A stretch of DNA of 35,843 nt, taken from positions 1 through 35,843 of the forward strand of contig JAVBXO010000074.1 of assembly GCA_030824535.1 (NCBI GenBank), written 5' to 3'. Positions 12,178 through 20,780 of the stretch are shown piece after piece. Under the pieces are notes generated by a model, which saw only the letters and a program-made list of their open reading frames with translations, searched no databases and had not been told where the DNA came from. This stretch comes from Azonexus sp. GTDB taxonomy: Bacteria > Pseudomonadota > Gammaproteobacteria > Burkholderiales > Rhodocyclaceae. Every line of letters starts with the position of its first letter. The first letter of the stretch is position 1. A program made the position numbers and the translations under genes.

Positions 12178-13455
12178 ATGATGCTGATGAAACGACGTGA
12201 TTTCCTGAAGGTCGGCGCGGCAGCCAGCGCCATGGCTTCGCTCTACGGCTGTGCCGGCGGTGGCAAGGCCAGCGGCCATGTGGTCGTCGTCGGGGGCGGC
12301 TACGGCGGTGCGACAGTCGCCAAGTACCTGCGCATGTGGAGCGAAGGCGGCGTGCAGGTCACGCTGATCGAGCGCAACCCGAGCTTTATCTCCTGCCCGA
12401 TTTCCAATCTGGTCATTGGCGGCCAGAAGACCATGGAAGACATCACCGTCAGCTATGACGGCCTGAAGAGCAAATGGGGCGTGCGCGTCATCCAGGACGA
12501 AGTTGCTGCGGTCAACGCCGAAAAGAAGACGATTTCCCTGAAATCGGGCAGCAGCCTGAGCTACGACCGCCTAGTGCTGTCACCGGGTGTCGATTTCATG
12601 TGGGACGAGATCCCGGCACTCAAGAGCGCCGACGCCCAGGGCAAGATCCTCCACGCCTGGAAGGCCGGCCCGCAAACCGTCGCCCTGCGCAAACAACTCG
12701 AAGACCTGAAGGATGGCGGCACCTACGCCATTTCCATTCCGAAAGCGCCTTACCGCTGCCCGCCCGGTCCCTACGAGCGCGCCTGCCTGGTGGCCAATTA
12801 CTTCAAGCAGAGCAAGCCCAAGTCCAAGGTCGTCATCCTCGACGCCAACGAAGATGTGATGTCGAAGAAAGGCCTGTTCACCAAGGCCTGGAGCGATCTG
12901 TACAAGGGCATCATCGAGTACCGCAACAACAGCGAGGTCAAGGACGTCGAAGTCGCCAGCAACACTGCCATCCTCGAATTCGACAAGTTCAAGGCCGACG
13001 TGCTGAACATCATCCCGCCGCATCGCGCCGGTGACATCGCGCACAAGTCGGGCATCAAGCTGATCAACAACCGCTGGGTGGACGTCAATTGGCTGTCGAT
13101 GGAATCGACCAGCACACCGGGCATCCACATCCTCGGCGACGCGATCTTCCCGGCCCCGACCATGCCGAAGTCCGGCCACATGGCCAACCAGCACGGCAAA
13201 CTCGCCGCCGCGGCGATCCTTAACCAGCTCGCCGGCCATGAACCGAATCCGAACCCGGTGGTGATGAACACCTGCTACAGCTTTGTCGACAGCAAGAACG
13301 TCATCCACGTTTCGTCGGTGCACCAGTACGACGCCGCGACCAAGACCGTGCAACCGGTCAAGGGCGCCGGTGGCGTTTCGGCTGCACGTAACGAACTCGA
13401 AGGCAAGGTAGCACTGGGCTGGGCCAAGAACATCTGGGCCGACATGCTGGCCTGA
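12178..13455 (+). CDS. fccB: Flavocytochrome c sulfide dehydrogenase, FAD subunit (FccB/SoxF)
   Basis: Periplasmic FAD enzyme of 425 residues that oxidises sulfide and passes electrons to the cytochrome encoded just before it. A Tat signal (KRRDFLKVGAAAS) starts the protein, the FAD-binding glycine motif is VVVVGGGYGG (35-44), Cys73 in FISCPISNLVIGG corresponds to the cysteine that holds FAD covalently in characterised FccB, and Cys194 (YRCPPGPYE) and Cys366 (NTCYSFVD) correspond to the redox-active disulfide. Length fits the family. GGGAG precedes the start; ATGs at 12181 and 12187 are also possible. A strong terminator follows. Confidence 0.95.
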   Translation: MMLMKRRDFLKVGAAASAMASLYGCAGGGKASGHVVVVGGGYGGATVAKYLRMWSEGGVQVTLIERNPSFISCPISNLVIGGQKTMEDITVSYDGLKSKWGVRVIQDEVAAVNAEKKTISLKSGSSLSYDRLVLSPGVDFMWDEIPALKSADAQGKILHAWKAGPQTVALRKQLEDLKDGGTYAISIPKAPYRCPPGPYERACLVANYFKQSKPKSKVVILDANEDVMSKKGLFTKAWSDLYKGIIEYRNNSEVKDVEVASNTAILEFDKFKADVLNIIPPHRAGDIAHKSGIKLINNRWVDVNWLSMESTSTPGIHILGDAIFPAPTMPKSGHMANQHGKLAAAAILNQLAGHEPNPNPVVMNTCYSFVDSKNVIHVSSVHQYDAATKTVQPVKGAGGVSAARNELEGKVALGWAKNIWADMLA

Positions 13456-13546: not shown

Positions 13547-14161
13547 TTACTCGAGTGTCGCGATGTACTCGGCGACGGCATTGCGTTCCAGCTCGGTGAG
13601 CTTGGAGGCGACGGTATGCATGACGGCATTGTCGTTGTTGCGCTCACGCGAGTTGAACTGCTTGAGCTGATCCTCGACATAACGCGGATGCTGGCCAGCA
13701 AGGCGCGGCAATTGCGGCGTCCCCAGGCCTTGCGGACCATGGCAACTGGCGCATGCCGGCAGACCACTGAACTGGTTGCCGCGGTTGAAGATGTATTTGC
13801 CGACCGCCAGCAATTCCGCATCCTTGACCTTGCGCCCACCGAACTTTTTGGCTTCGAAATACGCCCCGAGCGCCTTCATCTCGAGCGGCGTCAATTCCTC
13901 GGCCTGCGGCTTCATGGTGTCGCTCTTGCGCTTGCCGGACTGAAAATCGGCCAGCTGACGCGCGATGTACTCGGAATGCTGACCAGCCAGGCGCGGAAAA
14001 ACCGGGCTGGCCGACTCGCCTTCGAGGCCGTGACAAAGGAAACAGCGCCCGGAAACGATTTCCTCAGCCCGCGCCAGATCGACCTTGTCGGCCGCTACCG
14101 CAGTAAAGGAAAACGCTGCGGCACAGGCCACCGTCAGCAAATACGAACCCAGCTTGTGCAT
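13547..14161 (-). CDS. Diheme cytochrome c4-type protein
   Basis: A 204-residue exported cytochrome made of two homologous class I domains. Heme sites are CFLCH (Cys40-His44) and CASCH (Cys137-His141), each followed by the c4-typical segment PRLAGQH and a later methionine region (DTMKP; NAVMHTVA) that would supply the axial ligand. Cytochromes c4 carry electrons in the periplasm to terminal oxidases, which would suit electrons from Sox and FccAB. The start at 14161 gives a normal signal peptide; a longer ORF from 14185 adds eight residues. The gene is leftward, converges with fccAB at a shared terminator, and lies 63 bases downstream of dut. Confidence 0.9.
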   Translation of the reverse strand: MHKLGSYLLTVACAAAFSFTAVAADKVDLARAEEIVSGRCFLCHGLEGESASPVFPRLAGQHSEYIARQLADFQSGKRKSDTMKPQAEELTPLEMKALGAYFEAKKFGGRKVKDAELLAVGKYIFNRGNQFSGLPACASCHGPQGLGTPQLPRLAGQHPRYVEDQLKQFNSRERNNDNAVMHTVASKLTELERNAVAEYIATLE

Positions 14162-14179
14162 GTCCCGCCCCTTATATAA

Positions 14180-14207
14180 AAGCAAATCATTAAATCGTAA
14201 TTTGCTT
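14180..14207. repeat. AT-rich inverted repeat upstream of the cytochrome c4 gene
   Basis: AAGCAAAT (14180-14187) and ATTTGCTT (14200-14207) are perfect inverted copies around a 12-base AT-rich centre. It fills much of the gap between dut and the cytochrome gene, where an AT-rich TATATAAG lies on the minus strand. It may be an operator for the cytochrome gene or mark the left edge of the acquired island. Confidence 0.5.
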
Positions 14208-14224: not shown

Positions 14225-14689
14225 TCAGGCGTGACCGGTACTGCCGAAACCACCGGTACCCCGCTCGGTTTCAGTCGAGAACTCATCCGTAAAATGCAAT
14301 GCAACCTGCATAACAGGTTGGAACATCAACTGAGCGATGCGGTCACCAGGCTCAACATGGAACGGCTTATCGCCATCGTTGGCCAAGATGACGCAAATTT
14401 CGCCGTGGTAATCCGAATCAATGACACCGATGCCTTGGGCTACGCGAATTCCGTACTTTAACGATAACCCGGAACGCGAAGCCACTACGGCGACAAGCCC
14501 AGGGTCCATCATGTTGAGAGCAATCCCGGTCTCAACCAACAAGCGCCCTCCGGGCAAAATTGTGACGCCCCCTTCCAGGCAAGCACGCAAGTCCATAGCA
14601 GCAGAACCATCAGTTGCATAGGTAGGAGTGGGAATGCTGTTACCCAGCAACGGGTTGACGATTTTGGCTTCAATACGACGTCTGAACAT
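14225..14689 (-). CDS. dut: dUTPase (complete, divergent type)
   Basis: Trimeric-type dUTP diphosphatase of 154 residues, converting dUTP to dUMP so uracil stays out of DNA. All five motifs are present: [11 protein letters not shown] (26-36), [11 protein letters not shown] (71-81), [11 protein letters not shown] with catalytic Asp91 and Tyr94, GDRIAQ (115-120), and [10 protein letters not shown] (143-152). The motif II-III region ([11 protein letters not shown]) differs from the GHKHGIVLGN form usual in gamma- and betaproteobacteria and resembles phage, plasmid or Gram-positive types. G+C is lower than in housekeeping neighbours, except near the 3-prime end. GAGGAA precedes the ATG. It lies 63 bases after the helicase gene and is probably co-transcribed. 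See the native dut stump at 19552-19587. Confidence 0.95.
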
Positions 14690-14752: not shown

Positions 14753-17700
14753 TCAAGCGGACATTGACTCCAAAGTGCCCTCATTACCTGTCAGCGCAGA
14801 TTCACCCCCCTCATCCTTTGCTTCATCCGGCGGAAACGCTACAACCTGCCTGGACTCAACATGAATACTGGTAACCGGGGCTTCAACGCAACTCGGGTGG
14901 ATCCCGTGAACTTCCAGCGTCTCAATCAGGTCACGGACGACATCCTCCTTGTGGAGCACGAATGTGGAAGCAAAACATCGCCAGAAGCGCCAGCCGGCCC
15001 GCTCCAGAATGCGCTGCCGACGCATATCGCTATCCCACTGGTCGGGACCATGGTAACGGTCACCATCACACTCAATTGCCAAGCGGCTATCAGCATCACC
15101 CTCGACAACCATATCCAGCCGATAAGAACCCACCGGGACCTGAGGAATGACACGATAGCCTCGCTCCACCAAGAGGTCGAATACCTCACGCTCAAACGGC
15201 GACTCGCAGCGCTCCCGTAGGTTATCTAGCTCCTCTTCCCCTTGGAAGAACGGCGCCTGAAAGTGCTGAATCAACTTCGAGCGCAACTGGTCAGCCTGGC
15301 TCAACTCTTCTGTCTGAAGACTGCGGACCAAGTACATCCGGTCTCGAGCCCGAGAGGCGGCCACGTTGAAGCGCTGGGCAACCATCTCCTGAGTCTGAGC
15401 ATGTGCGTGCCCTGGGGAAGCAACCATGGACAGAAACATGATGTCTCGCTCTTTGCCCTGAAATGTCCGCGCATCACCGCATGTAATTTTGTACTGAGTG
15501 ACCACCTGCTCACCCAGTTCTTCGTTGAGCATTTGCATGATCTTCAAGGCCTGTTCATTCCCTAGCAGCGAGACAACACCAATCGTGCGGCCATCAAAAA
15601 TACGGTTTTCAACGATGGCCCTAATCTCATCAACGATGAAACGAGCCTCAGGCAAGTTGATGTCCTTGTTGCGATAGCCATCGATCACATAGACGTCCAC
15701 AAGCGGTGGGTCCAGGCGCTCAGAGGCCTTTGGCATCCTCAGAGGCTTCAACTCATGGTTGTAAAACTCTCGCTTCGAATACTCGATGATAGGAGCGACA
15801 CACCGAAAATGCTCCCGGAGCATCACGGCGCTCTTGGCAAACACCACCTTAAACAAGTCGTAGATGGACCGCTCAGGGGTCATCTGCGAACGGTAAATGT
15901 CGACTTGATTAGCCAAGAAGCGAGCCATCAGATTCCTGATCTTCTCTTCCTCAAGACCAACACCTTCTGGAGAGACCTGCTTGTCATCACCAACCACCAG
16001 GATTTTCTTGGCCCGGAGAATTGCCGGAAGTGCTGTCAAGTCAGACTGAGAAGCCTCATCAATAATCACTAGATCGAAGCAACCGAAGCTTGCGGGCAGC
16101 GATTCGCAAATTCGGTAGTGCGGCATAATCCAGCACGGAATCGCGCCATTGGCACGTTCAGCCGCAAAGCGGGCATCCTGACGGTAGCGCCCAGCACGGA
16201 TACCCGTGCCCTTCCCAATCTTCTTGATGGCCGAGCGATACGCTTCAAGCGCGGCGCGAACATCGGGTGTCGCGTTTTCAGCCAGCTTCAACCAAGTCCG
16301 CTTGTTAACGGCCTCTTGATATAGCTTCGACAGGTCGCTTTCAAGGTCCATACGAAGCTTGGACAAACGCTTCAACTCATGGCGGCCATCAATTTTGTCG
16401 ACGAAGTTCACCAGCCTGCACAGGCGCCAGACTTCACGCCAATTATCTGGCAGCAAGGCATCATGAGCGCCTGGATGCGCCTCTTTGCGAAGCTTCATCG
16501 CCCATTGCTTTGCCCCGGATGCCTCAATCTGCTGAGTAACCTCTGCGACGGTTTTGAGGCTGCCAGCAAGACCTTGAATTCGACGGAGCTCTTCCACCAG
16601 CTTCGACCAAGCGGTCTGGATGTCGATCTCAGAAGCGTCTGGGTTACCAAGGCGCCTGTTCAGGAATTCACGCAGCTGTTCGGTAATATCACCCTCGCAA
16701 CCGAACAACGCCTTCAGGAACGACTCCTTGACCACCCATGTTTCCGCCAGGCGATGGCGCGTAAGGTGGTGCTGGAGAATTGTCTCAGCCTCCCAGAGCA
16801 GCTCTTTGGAATACGGCGTCTGACCTGCTTTCTGCCACGACGGGAGCAAAAGCTGAACGGCACATGCGACTTCGGCCTCGTCCGTGATACTCAAGGCCAC
16901 CTTGCTGTACAGGTCGATGGTCATGCCGGCCGCAACCAAGCGGTCTGGTTTGGGCTCAAACCGGGGCAGCGAAATCTCGTCGGCCAATGTATTCCAGCGC
17001 ACAAGCAGTGCCTTGCACTGCTGCTGGAACTTGAGGAAGTGAAGAACATGTTCCCAATCTGCCACGGAGGCCGGCTTAGCGCTCACCACCACCACGGAGT
17101 CGAGAATTCGCTTTTGCTCTGCCTTACCGAACATGCCAGCTAACCCAAACGGCTTCTTGCCCTGCGCCAGATTTGAGACGGCCTCTACCAGTTCAAGATT
17201 GGACTCGAATCCCTCTGAGAGCGCTACTGGTTTTGCCAAGAATTGCTTCCGTGCATCAAGTGCGGCGAGGACTTCGTCTTTCAAGGTCAGGAACAAATCC
17301 AGAATTTCATTCTTTGAACTGCGCCGCAGGTACTGCTGCAGCCCATTCGTCCAGGCCTGTTGGACGTTATCAATTTCTTGTAGCAACAACCGAAGGTTGG
17401 ATATCTTCGAAGCCGCAGTCATGGCAGCCTTGACTGTTTCCTGCGTCGTGCTGACAAGCCTTGGCACCACACCATCCGATTCCTGAGTCTTCAGCTCTGA
17501 AAGGCGAGACAGGTCCAGATGCACCTGCAGAAGCCTTCCCGTCTCGGGGAAGTCGGCAATTTGAGGAATCCTCTTGCCTAGATACGCAAGGTCAGCACCC
17601 AACGTCAGCCTTACATCCCGTAAAGCCGAAATCTCCTTGTTCCCGAACTGCGGCCGGTGCTGCTTGTCGATGGTCAGCGTATCTGGGAACCAAGCCACCT

Positions 17701-19393
17701 CCTGGCGATTTACTGCCACCTCTTCTGCAACTTCAACAGGTGTCAGCGACTCATTGTCAATCTGGAGCTTATCGAGGTTCATCCGAGCCCAATTGGAGAT
17801 TTCCTTGTCTGCCTTGGAAATTCGACCGTGCAACGAGTCTATTTGACCATCGATTTGCTCGATTTCTCGACGATAGGCCGCACGGTCAATCCGTGTAACC
17901 TCGGCGGCAATCTTGTTGATGGCGAACTCGAATTGTTTCATTCCCTCTGCTTCACTGGTCAGCAGACTAATGGCCAAGGGTCGAATCGACTCGGGTAGCT
18001 TTTCCTGCAGAACAGAGAGTGCTGGGTCCTTCATCGAAGTAACGAGAACCCGCTTGCCCAGCGCAAGGTAATGGCAGATTACGTTGGCAATAGTGTGTGT
18101 TTTACCTGTACCAGGGGGCCCCTGGACAACCACGCCATCATGAGCCTCAAGCATCTGAACAATCTGGACTTGCTCATCGTTGTAAGCCTTGGGGAAGTAG
18201 AGCTCGGAAACCTTGCCTGAGCCATTCCCGCTACCACTGACAACAGATAGCCCTCGGAATGGCGGTAGAGAAACCTCCTCATTGGCTGAAGATGGCTCGG
18301 TAACCAACGCCATAACAGCCTCAGGCAGTGCACCTAACCCATCCCCTGCACGCAGAGTCGCCTCGAAGCGCTCCAAGTCTTGAACGAGCAAGTTGCTGGT
18401 ACGTGGACGAGCTAACAGCACCCATGTGTCAGTCATGATCAGGTTCTCGCTAGCCTTAGGTAGGCCGCGGTCATCTGCCGTTGTCTGTGTCGGCCAGTAG
18501 GTGCCGGAAGCATCCAGGAATGTTGCTGCCGACCTTAGTAGCGGCTCGAAAGTGCTGGGCTCGAACGGATTCAGGACCCCACCAGTCGACTCAAAGAACT
18601 TCTTGCTAGTATCAACAAGTTTGGCCACGCCCGGATTGTCCATGGAGGCGTAGATGTCGACCTCTAAACGAGGCTCAGATGAACGCGGCCGAATCTCGAG
18701 CGCCATCGTTTTCTCGTTGAGAGAAATTTCGACGAGCTGAGTCAGCAGAGGATATGTCAGGGTGCCATTTGGTAGCCCCCAAATAGCAATACCTACGCCC
18801 CACACAAACTCAAGCTGGGAGTCTACTAGGTTGCCCTGCATTTTCTGGGAGAGCATGAACAGTTCTGAGTACAAGGCGATACTCTTGCGAACCTCTTTTT
18901 CACGCTCAGCCCAAGGACGCCAAACGACCTCAAGGTAAGACTTGAGTTGGGCCTTGAGAATTTCTTGGTCTGGAAATTCATCCAGTGCAATAACAATGGG
19001 CTCAACCTTCTCTTTGCCCCTCTCTGTCTCGGCCCCGTGCTCGGCATGAGCCTCAACCGTGAGTGCACCAACTTCAATCAGTGCTTGGCGAACGACATGA
19101 GTCTTGAGAGTGGGCTCCTTGGTAGGCGCCTGCGGCAAGTCAATCCACAGCGCTAAGAGCTTGCTTTCAGGGGCTGGCGGGCGGCTTTCGTGAAGGCGCT
19201 CAAGGTGAAGCCAGACCTCATCGAGCTCGGCCTCCTGGCCGTTGAATGTAATTCCTGGCAGGCCTTTGATTCTCTCTTCAATGCGCGTGAAGTCTTTGTG
19301 CTGGGAGAGATTCTGCAAAGGCGTCTTCTTTAGCAGGGCCGTTTGTTTTGCAAACTCAATAAGAGCTACAAGCCGTTCGTTTTGGAGGTTCAT
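14753..19393 (-). CDS. SF1 UPF1-like helicase fused to a Vsr-like PD-(D/E)XK nuclease; candidate defence protein
   Basis: A 1546-residue protein. The N-terminal 400 residues are not recognised. The helicase core has Walker A GPPGTGKT (425-432, Lys431), Walker B VIIDEASQSD (Asp1112/Glu1113), motif III VVGDDKQVSP, motif IV-like LREHFRC, motif V DARTFQGKERD and motif VI QRFNVAASRARD, typical of COG1112/UPF1-type SF1 enzymes. About 650 residues with coiled-coil character separate Walker A and B. The C-terminus (about 1395-1500) is a restriction-endonuclease-like fold: Glu1401/Glu1403 in SPFERE, Asp1427 in RLDMVV and Glu1441-Cys-Asp1443 in IECDGDRYHG, followed by RRQRILERAGWRFWR, resembling the REase_MTES_1575/Vsr group. 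Combined helicase-nuclease proteins of this kind are frequent in defence islands; function here is inferred. An in-frame TAA lies 15 bases upstream, fixing the ATG; the Shine-Dalgarno is weak. Confidence 0.85.
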   Translation of the reverse strand: MNLQNERLVALIEFAKQTALLKKTPLQNLSQHKDFTRIEERIKGLPGITFNGQEAELDEVWLHLERLHESRPPAPESKLLALWIDLPQAPTKEPTLKTHVVRQALIEVGALTVEAHAEHGAETERGKEKVEPIVIALDEFPDQEILKAQLKSYLEVVWRPWAEREKEVRKSIALYSELFMLSQKMQGNLVDSQLEFVWGVGIAIWGLPNGTLTYPLLTQLVEISLNEKTMALEIRPRSSEPRLEVDIYASMDNPGVAKLVDTSKKFFESTGGVLNPFEPSTFEPLLRSAATFLDASGTYWPTQTTADDRGLPKASENLIMTDTWVLLARPRTSNLLVQDLERFEATLRAGDGLGALPEAVMALVTEPSSANEEVSLPPFRGLSVVSGSGNGSGKVSELYFPKAYNDEQVQIVQMLEAHDGVVVQGPPGTGKTHTIANVICHYLALGKRVLVTSMKDPALSVLQEKLPESIRPLAISLLTSEAEGMKQFEFAINKIAAEVTRIDRAAYRREIEQIDGQIDSLHGRISKADKEISNWARMNLDKLQIDNESLTPVEVAEEVAVNRQEVAWFPDTLTIDKQHRPQFGNKEISALRDVRLTLGADLAYLGKRIPQIADFPETGRLLQVHLDLSRLSELKTQESDGVVPRLVSTTQETVKAAMTAASKISNLRLLLQEIDNVQQAWTNGLQQYLRRSSKNEILDLFLTLKDEVLAALDARKQFLAKPVALSEGFESNLELVEAVSNLAQGKKPFGLAGMFGKAEQKRILDSVVVVSAKPASVADWEHVLHFLKFQQQCKALLVRWNTLADEISLPRFEPKPDRLVAAGMTIDLYSKVALSITDEAEVACAVQLLLPSWQKAGQTPYSKELLWEAETILQHHLTRHRLAETWVVKESFLKALFGCEGDITEQLREFLNRRLGNPDASEIDIQTAWSKLVEELRRIQGLAGSLKTVAEVTQQIEASGAKQWAMKLRKEAHPGAHDALLPDNWREVWRLCRLVNFVDKIDGRHELKRLSKLRMDLESDLSKLYQEAVNKRTWLKLAENATPDVRAALEAYRSAIKKIGKGTGIRAGRYRQDARFAAERANGAIPCWIMPHYRICESLPASFGCFDLVIIDEASQSDLTALPAILRAKKILVVGDDKQVSPEGVGLEEEKIRNLMARFLANQVDIYRSQMTPERSIYDLFKVVFAKSAVMLREHFRCVAPIIEYSKREFYNHELKPLRMPKASERLDPPLVDVYVIDGYRNKDINLPEARFIVDEIRAIVENRIFDGRTIGVVSLLGNEQALKIMQMLNEELGEQVVTQYKITCGDARTFQGKERDIMFLSMVASPGHAHAQTQEMVAQRFNVAASRARDRMYLVRSLQTEELSQADQLRSKLIQHFQAPFFQGEEELDNLRERCESPFEREVFDLLVERGYRVIPQVPVGSYRLDMVVEGDADSRLAIECDGDRYHGPDQWDSDMRRQRILERAGWRFWRCFASTFVLHKEDVVRDLIETLEVHGIHPSCVEAPVTSIHVESRQVVAFPPDEAKDEGGESALTGNEGTLESMSA

Positions 19394-19394
19394 C

Positions 19395-19406
19395 AGAAAG
19401 CTTTCT
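19395..19406. promoter_or_regulatory. Palindrome directly before the helicase-nuclease start codon
   Basis: AGAAAGCTTTCT is a perfect 12-base palindrome one base upstream of the ATG, overlapping where the ribosome binding site must lie. It could be an operator or an RNA hairpin limiting translation. Confidence 0.35.
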
Positions 19407-19551
19407 TATGTGCCATGAGCGACAACGCAAGCATGACGGCCAAGGCCAGGAGCACCCACTCAAGTGACCGAACTATCTATCAAGAACTGTGGAAAAGTAT
19501 CAAACAGAGGCTGAAGAATGGACAAACATTCCGCAGGCTAACTGACGCGCT
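19407..19551. other. Non-coding junction segment of the island
   Basis: These 145 bases separate the helicase-nuclease gene from the native dut stump. They should contain the promoter of the helicase gene, but no convincing -35/-10 pair was found on the minus strand. A plus-strand frame, ATG 19415 to a stop at 19603 (62 residues, SDRTIYQELWKSIKQRLKNG within it), runs through the junction into coaBC; it has no ribosome binding site and is not recognised. It may be a decayed gene fragment carried by the island or chance. Confidence 0.4.
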
Positions 19552-19587
19552 TCACTTACCGAGAATCTTGATATCAATGCGCTGCAT
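19552..19587 (-). pseudogene. dut: 5-prime stump of the native dut gene
   Basis: Immediately after coaBC, the stop and a new start overlap as TGATG (the shared base is 19587). The frame reads [11 protein letters not shown] and then TGA. The first nine residues match the way betaproteobacterial dUTPases begin (M-x-x-I/V-D-I/V-K-I-L, usually continuing D-x-R). The coaBC-dut order with start/stop overlap is a common arrangement in these bacteria. The frame departs from dut after Leu9, at about 19558-19561, which therefore marks the right junction of the inserted DNA. The match is short, but position, overlap and sequence all agree. Confidence 0.75.
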
Positions 19588-20780
19588 CAGTCTTTTCCTT
19601 TGAGCATTTGGGCGATGTGTTCAATCAGTTGGCGTGCCAGCACCGATTTGGACGCCAGCGTCAGCGGGTGGGAACCGGCTTCGTCGAACAGCACGATACG
19701 GTTGTCGTCACCCCCGAAGCCGTCCTGGATCAGGTTGCCGGCGATCAGCGGGATATTCTTCTTGCGCCGCTTGGTCTGCGCATATTCTTCAAGATTGCGG
19801 CTCTCGGCAGCAAAGCCGACGCAGAACGGGCCATTTTTCAAGGCTGCAACTTCCGCCAGGATGTCCGGGTTTTCGACCAGCTCAATCGGCGGAATCCCGC
19901 CCGTATCCTTTTTCAGCTTGTGTTCGGCAGCATTGGCCACGCGATAGTCAGCCACTGCCGCAACGCCAATGAAAATATCAGCCGTCGCCGCCTGCCCCAT
20001 CACTGCCGCATGCATTTCCAGCGCACTGCGCACATTAATGCGGTCAACCCCCTGCGGCGAGGCAAAACCAACCGGCCCGGAAACCAGCGTGACCCCGGCC
20101 CCGGCATGCCGCGCCGCGCGGGCAATGGCGTAGCCCATGCGCCCGGAAGAAAGATTGGTGATGCCGCGTACTGGATCGATGGCTTCAAAGGTCGGGCCGG
20201 CGGTCAGCAGCAACTTGCGCCCGGCCAGCACCTTGGGTGCGCAAAAGGCGATGACTTCCTCGGCGATCTGCTCAGGCTCGAGCATGCGCCCGGCGCCCAC
20301 TTCGCCACAGGCCTGTTCGCCGCTGGCCGGGCCGAGCACGATGACGCCATCGGCACGCAATTGCGCAACATTGCGCTGTGTCGCCGGGTTTTCCCACATC
20401 TGGCGATTCATTGCCGGCGCCACCAATAAAGGACAGTTGCGCGCCAGCACCATGGTCGCCAGCAAATCGTCGGCCATGCCGTTGGCGATGCGCGCCAGGA
20501 AATCGGCCGAGGCCGGCGCAATAACGATCAGGTCGGCCTGGCGCGACAGATCGATGTGGGCCATGGCATTGGGCATGCGCGCATCCCACTGATCCAGGTA
20601 AACCGGCTTGCCGGACAGCGCCTGAAAAGTCGTCGCGGTCACGAAATGCGTCGCTCCCTCGGTCATCGCCACCTGCACATCCGCCCCCTGCTTGCCCAGC
20701 AGGCGCACCAGCTCGGCGGCCTTGTAGGCGGCAATGCCGCCCGTCACCCCGAGCACGACGCGTTTGTCATTTAATTCCAT
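19587..20780 (-). CDS. coaBC: Bifunctional phosphopantothenoylcysteine decarboxylase/synthetase
   Basis: A 397-residue cytoplasmic enzyme for two steps of coenzyme A synthesis: CTP-dependent coupling of 4-phosphopantothenate to cysteine and FMN-dependent decarboxylation to 4-phosphopantetheine. The N-terminal CoaC part shows [11 protein letters not shown], His75, PAMNRQMW with Asn125, and [13 protein letters not shown] with Cys158. The C-terminal CoaB part starts near residue 187 with [24 protein letters not shown] and includes AAVADYR and the KLKK segment. Its length is normal and the gene is intact. It is divergent from radC, and its stop codon overlaps the ATG of the native dut stump, which shows the ancestral coaBC-dut coupling. 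Confidence 0.97.

Follow-up and report, generated by a model that had tools for sequence, protein, structure and literature searches.

Probable in-place replacement of native dut by a foreign dUTPase gene with helicase-nuclease cargo in Azonexus

The coaBC-dut locus and its truncated frame

The window, the whole 35,843-nucleotide stretch of Azonexus sp. DNA analyzed here, comes from a MAG of 451 contigs with a recorded completeness of 88.47%. Its minus strand carries coaBC (19587..20780; Pfam DFP and Flavoprotein; up to 89% identical in relatives), the native left neighbor of dut, followed by an 11-codon frame (19552..19587), an unstranded spacer of 166 bases reaching from the last native base to the next gene (19394..19559), a gene for a 1546-residue helicase-nuclease protein assigned with Pfam (14753..19393), a dUTPase gene of 154 residues that we call dut2, recognized by NCBIfam models, a tree and a block comparison (14225..14689), and a cytochrome c gene (13547..14185; Pfam Cytochrom_C), which is the native right neighbor of dut in this group. 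On the plus strand, opposite to the cytochrome c gene, lies a gene for flavocytochrome c sulfide dehydrogenase (12178-13455). According to the window's gene list and Pfam, only the helicase gene and dut2 lie between the two joints described below, with a G+C content of 54.1 and 53.5%, respectively, vs 61.3% in the remaining window; 158 bases separate the stop of the 11-codon frame from the start of the helicase gene.

The coaBC stop codon TGA occupies positions 19589-19587 of the minus strand, and its final A is the first base of ATGCAGCGCATTGATATCAAGATTCTCGGTAAGTGA, the 11-codon frame that runs from 19587 to 19552 and is joined to coaBC by this TGATG-type overlap. For comparison we used the best 80 of the 402 coaBC loci found, 78 of which have an ordinary dut no more than 370 bp behind coaBC, the exceptions being the loci L074 and L055; the same one-base TGATG-type overlap with coaBC is present in 53 of the 78. 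The first 28 bases of the frame (19560-19587) agree with the 78 native dut starts at 19.7 positions on average and at 25 in the best case, whereas the next eight (19552-19559) agree at 2.2 positions on average, which is chance level. At the protein level, M1, I4, D5, K7, D10, R12, and L13 are invariant in the 51 nearest native starts (L031-L083 minus two replaced loci). The frame carries the commonest native residue at positions 1, 3, 4, 5, 7, 8, and 9, a minority form at position 6 (I, as in 4 of the 51) and a residue absent from all 51 at position 2 (Q), and departs from native dut at positions 10 (G for D), 11, and 12 (stop for R). Position 19560 is the last base that fits native dut, and the break follows directly, at codon 9/10.

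The comparison confirms that the first 28 bases of the frame, hereafter the stump, are the start of the native dut. A first-pass annotation of this DNA had described a broken native dut start behind coaBC, opened by TGATG and interrupted after codon 9 at about 19558-19561, and each of these points was borne out. Its expectation that relatives would have dut behind coaBC likewise held (78 of the best 80 of 402 loci), and, rather than an 11-codon frame conserved in the absence of inserted DNA, those 78 loci have an ordinary dut. Separately, at L085, L089, L090, L094, and L097, where 205-370 bp separate coaBC and dut, a short frame begins on the coaBC stop.

The foreign dut and the missing native body

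The product of dut2 scores above the curated family cut-offs of both NF001862 (167.8 bits, cut-off 103) and TIGR00576 (149.2 bits, cut-off 102.55), by which it is predicted to be a dUTP diphosphatase; solved dUTPases match the protein down to 2e-43, and the end motif GGFGSTG is present in the alignment. It is 46% identical to a native dut, and dut2 and native dut form separate clades with support of 100/100 in a 24-row tree that omits the dut2 genes of G739 and G790. The gene lies 4.86 kb from the stump, in agreement with the first-pass annotation, which had placed a different, complete dut 4.9 kb away at the other end of the inserted DNA.

A dUTPase was found in 376 of 395 genomes of the family, and the genome to which the window belongs (a MAG, 88.47% complete) yielded none besides dut2. 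Among the family matches listed, the dut2 clade comprises, besides the window, only G081 (83% identical) and G076 (74%), the next match being 54% identical. Members of the clade occur in three of 76 genomes of the genus (those of the window, G470, and G026; E up to 1e-55) and in five of 399 genomes drawn from the order, the window counted. In G511 dut2 stands immediately behind coaBC, and in G790, G739, and G708 it follows by about 0.1, 0.2, and 0.8 kb, in the last case after another open frame. Since dut2 thus lies behind coaBC in other lineages of the order, it is an ordinary chromosomal dut there; in G081 and G076 it lies away from coaBC. A phage or plasmid source was rejected, at the sensitivity of these searches: all matches in 2083 phage and 290 plasmid records are less than 60% identical, and 11 loci on viral contigs reach at most 48%. 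In G081, the relocated dut2 has genes for a BrnT-type toxin and a CopG-type antitoxin at a distance of about 2 kb (L187:11661-12180, minus strand; Pfam).

From codon 10 onward the native dut is missing from the window, and the remaining 140 or so codons were not found on the far side of the inserted DNA. In a comparison by 15-codon blocks, which took in 17 of the 78 native duts and seven dut2 genes (those of G739 and G790 omitted), the DNA of the window's dut2 on average resembles other dut2 genes more closely than it does native dut; this holds for each block up to codon 150, for example 0.81 vs 0.51 at columns 90-105. The last four codons, a short stretch, are closer to native dut in the window (0.76 vs 0.60) and only there, the same codons being non-discriminating in L074 (0.61 vs 0.62) and G026 (0.77 vs 0.76). 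Straight after the dut2 stop, the bases CTTGAAAG..GTAAGCAAATTACGATTTAATGATTTGCTTTT are those found downstream of native dut in L066, L095, L036, and L057, and the foreign stretch therefore ends at or shortly before the stop; the right joint probably sits in the conserved GGFGSTG codons, which are alike in both genes. Close behind dut, a cytochrome c gene more than 60% identical to that of the window is present in 23 of the 80 loci, with four further loci ending too early to judge, in keeping with the synteny that the first-pass annotation had anticipated.

Because the body of native dut is gone and native sequence continues from the dut2 stop, the locus has undergone a replacement in place, with cargo, and the earlier idea that an insertion broke dut gives way to this one, as distal native dut is lacking. 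Our main reading, to which we assign a probability of roughly 0.78, is that a xenologous dut, borne on a fragment that also carried the helicase-nuclease gene, took over the position of the native dut. As in xenologous displacement in place, a gene of a foreign clade occupies the native position, and a native copy was not found in the genome (88.47% complete). Gene displacement in situ, as in mosaic operons, is the replacement of a native gene by a xenologue within a conserved gene order. Similarly, the xenologue here occupies the position of native dut and gene order is kept, although in this case cargo came along and the old start remains beyond it.

A history in two steps, in which dut2 arrived beside native dut, the redundant native gene decayed and the helicase gene was inserted later, seems improbable to us. 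While dut2 can settle elsewhere, as its position away from coaBC in G081 and G076 attests, and the helicase gene moves without it (G129, below), the native bases right at the dut2 stop argue that dut2 took the place of native dut, and both duts were seen together at none of the 80 coaBC loci (the best 80 of 402).

Cargo, spacer, and recurrence in the genus

The 1546-residue protein comprises a superfamily 1 helicase (AAA_11, AAA_12) and a C-terminal MTES_1575/DUF559 nuclease domain (Pfam), and among solved structures the best it matches, weakly, are Upf1-type helicases. ProA, Hhe, and PDC-S37 likewise have a restriction-like nuclease region at the C-terminus of a superfamily 1 helicase; unlike members of the anti-phage families ProA and Hhe, the window's protein falls far below the curated cut-offs (205.5 bits against 1500 for ProA, NF058533; 152.9 bits against 2000 for Hhe, NF042953), and membership in either was rejected. 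Its best PADLOC match is PDC-S37, itself a candidate family. Relatives are common in the order: at E 1e-300 they are present in 27 of the 399 genomes, the 26 besides the window at 40-54% identity. In the IMG/VR viral collection a single relative was found, on one contig (L200:8001-12557; 53%).

The helicase of L074 shares 93.8% protein and 90.3% DNA identity with that of G129, a genome of another genus in which the gene lies at an unrelated place; the G129 copy (85% identical) is away from the dut locus, with no dut in the 18 kb read around it, and the 19 kb read around dut2 in G081 and G076 contain no helicase. The pair was seen in the window and L074 only, and a helicase-dut unit traveling together across genera is not supported; the helicase cargo also moves without dut2, as in G129.

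Twelve bases before the G129 helicase gene lies a 169-residue gene (L144:11036-11545, minus strand), whose product has two CxxC pairs and a hydrophobic C-terminus and whose best zinc-ribbon match is below the Pfam cut-off. The helicase-side end of the window's spacer matches the last bases of this gene and the short gap behind it (local alignment score 37, maximum 26 in 500 shuffles). The 169-residue protein is a possible lost partner of the window's helicase; its gene is intact beside none of the other helicase loci read, and a weak match (26%, E 4e-11) lies behind another large helicase, at L141. Searched whole in 149 genomes, the spacer matched its own genome only. Its plus strand contains an open tail (19474-19545) that ends in YLSRTVEKYQTEAEEWTNIPQAN and a stop, for which no relative was found, and which is perhaps the end of a lost gene. 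Since the spacer holds the end of another gene as well as this open tail, the left joint seen today may differ from the first one, and the spacer shows a left side that, to judge from these remnants, was rearranged at least once more. Of the base-level view of the disruption offered by the first-pass annotation, the break at codon 9/10 stands, while the joint now seen is possibly not that of the original event.

The two loci without an ordinary dut extend the observation to other members of the genus; all three replaced loci come from MAGs. At L074 (G470 C6) the order is coaBC, TGATGCAC, the helicase gene (84% identical in amino acids to the window's), dut2 (90%), and the cytochrome c gene, and the left joint falls in codon 2-3 of native dut, a few bases ahead of the helicase start, which leaves a stump shorter than that of the window. 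At L055 (G026 C267), coaBC is followed by TGATCGACCGTATCGG, an 18.5-kb secretion/RTX cluster, dut2, and a pntB-like sequence (so named by our own reading) that is also found downstream of native dut in L071 and L068. The remnant TGATCGACCGTATCGG matches native starts at 14 of 20 bases, vs a maximum of 12 at 100 control offsets. The cargo of G026 is on the opposite strand and encodes an outer-membrane efflux protein, HlyD, two ABC transporters, and, beside these secretion genes and between coaBC and dut2, a 3758-residue frame with RTX repeats (L207:8204-19480, joined coordinates). The left joints differ among the window, L074, and G026.

Ahead of dut2, a stretch of about 50 bases is common to the window and L074 (score 63, shuffle maximum 24) and absent in G081, G026, and G076; the helicase-dut2 pair of the window and L074 therefore has one origin, by descent or transfer. 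DNA identity between the two loci is nearly the same for coaBC (76.7%), the helicase gene (76.6%), and dut2 (78.1%), which fits common descent of the whole locus. A first tree of coaBC and radC covered 72 of the 80 loci and the window (eight loci lack a long enough coaBC or radC), and topology tests used 39 rows, namely 38 of the 72 loci, hand-picked for spread, plus the window; this host tree is built on these two genes alone, both of which adjoin the locus. The window, L074, and L055 fall in three places of the tree and a single host clade is rejected (AU p = 0.00013). A host clade of only the window and L074 is not rejected (p = 0.129), even though the tree groups L074 with L073 (96/86), a locus that has native dut. 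In the dut2 tree, the window and L074 as one clade have p = 0.074, the dut of G081 stands beside that of L074 (95/81), and a single clade of all three dut2 genes is not rejected (p = 0.212). Of three conceivable independent replacements only two are firmly separate, given p = 0.129 for the host clade of the window and L074; the genus has thus seen two such events at a minimum and perhaps a third.

The same data bear on a two-sided homologous exchange, in which the end of coaBC, the stump, the helicase gene, and dut2 were taken as a block from a member of the genus already replaced. The helicase-dut2 junction common to the window and L074 (the 50 or so bases scoring 63 vs 24) and the unrejected host clade of the two (p = 0.129, despite the pairing of L074 with L073 at 96/86) are in its favor. 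Such an exchange would nonetheless merely shift the original event to another genome, and the window and L074 differ in their left joint; we give it little chance.

Route of entry and significance of the dut replacement

The comparison of loci shows the replacement, its joints, and its recurrence; we infer from it a route of entry and a selection, and the functions of both genes are predicted. The route that we tentatively favor, at somewhat less than even odds, is anchored at one end, with a homologous right end and an illegitimate left joint. On its right, the fragment would be anchored by recombination in the conserved GGFGSTG end of dut, where the old and new genes are alike; on its left, an illegitimate joint within the opening codons of the old dut would complete the entry and delete the body of the native gene (about 0.4 kb). 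The dut gene is essential in Escherichia coli, and cells lacking dUTPase would not be expected to survive. Going by the title of a study, dut is reportedly also essential in Mycobacterium smegmatis (PMC3360063). Only joints that leave the incoming dut intact would therefore survive, and the neighboring gene would ride along.

Homology-facilitated illegitimate recombination, in what the excerpted account describes, brings in about 1 kb and removes about 1 kb on average, in most cases at microhomologies of 3-10 bp, and is very rare in E. coli conjugation (PMC3240628). As in those events, recipient DNA between the two ends is lost here, the native dut being absent from codon 10 onward; one end probably lies in shared sequence, and its counterpart in unlike sequence. 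Measured against the sizes given in that account, however, the insert here is larger (about 5 kb in the window and 18.5 kb in G026) and the deletion smaller (0.4 kb) than 1 kb each (PMC3240628). The right joint, placed in the last dut codons, can be discerned in the window over a short stretch, and the same codons do not discriminate in L074 and G026. A ComEC-type gene is present, which permits competence and does not show it.

Alternatively, dut may have been split after codon 9 by an island that had its own integration machinery and supplied a rescue dut, the machinery and the distal native dut being lost later; we regard this as unlikely. In addition to the stump and the dut at the far end, a precedent speaks for such an island: as excerpted, the report on Pseudomonas putida KT2440 describes a 65-kb, integrase-bearing, prophage-like island that splits tmk, with both segments remaining, and that supplies a replacement kinase of another family, dNMPK, whose function was tested (PMC10653934). 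On the other side, no integrase is found among the genes between the joints (gene list, Pfam), no tRNA gene in the window, and no direct repeat that pairs the fragment ends, so that none of the marks of an integrase-borne island (integrase, tRNA site, flanking direct repeats) is seen. One inverted pair near both ends, 19 nt long and 79% complementary, resembles chance among 20 pairs. Moreover, distal native dut is missing, native bases restart at the dut2 stop codon, and the left joints of the window, L074, and G026 are unlike one another. A role for the 11-codon frame in its own right, as a functional leader or small gene, which its completeness and its coupling to coaBC might suggest, has a negligible chance, given that it matches native dut to codon 9 and not beyond and that the other replaced loci do not retain it.

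The tmk island is the closest precedent for the dut replacement as we read it: in both cases, to the extent that the excerpted report covers it (PMC10653934), a gene of nucleotide metabolism is broken in its own locus, the incoming DNA supplies the function through a gene at its edge, and the arrangement is present or absent among related genomes. Compared with that account, the dut locus has no visible integrase, it has lost the body of the native gene, an orthologue has come in and is joined close to the native 3' end, the event recurs in the genus with different cargo, and function is predicted from sequence. In the first titles and abstracts listed on the coaBC-dut operon, or on dut together with islands or transfer, no account of a dut replacement was found, the nearest case being tmk.

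Whether dut is a repeated, integrase-free entry point for foreign cargo in the genus, with the captured dut acting as both anchor and retention device, we consider doubtful on these data. If so, accessory cargo, here a helicase-nuclease gene or a secretion/RTX cluster beside a foreign dut, would become fixed, as the joint destroys the native dut and the newcomer can no longer be lost. Searches for islands usually rely on integrases and tRNA sites, whereas the helicase-nuclease gene and, in another species, the secretion cluster seem to have entered by way of a conserved housekeeping gene, leaving a base-level scar. If this is general, a foreign orthologue on one side of newly acquired genes and a stump of its predecessor on their other side would be a searchable sign of integrase-free entry, and the same role could fall to other short genes whose 3' end is conserved.
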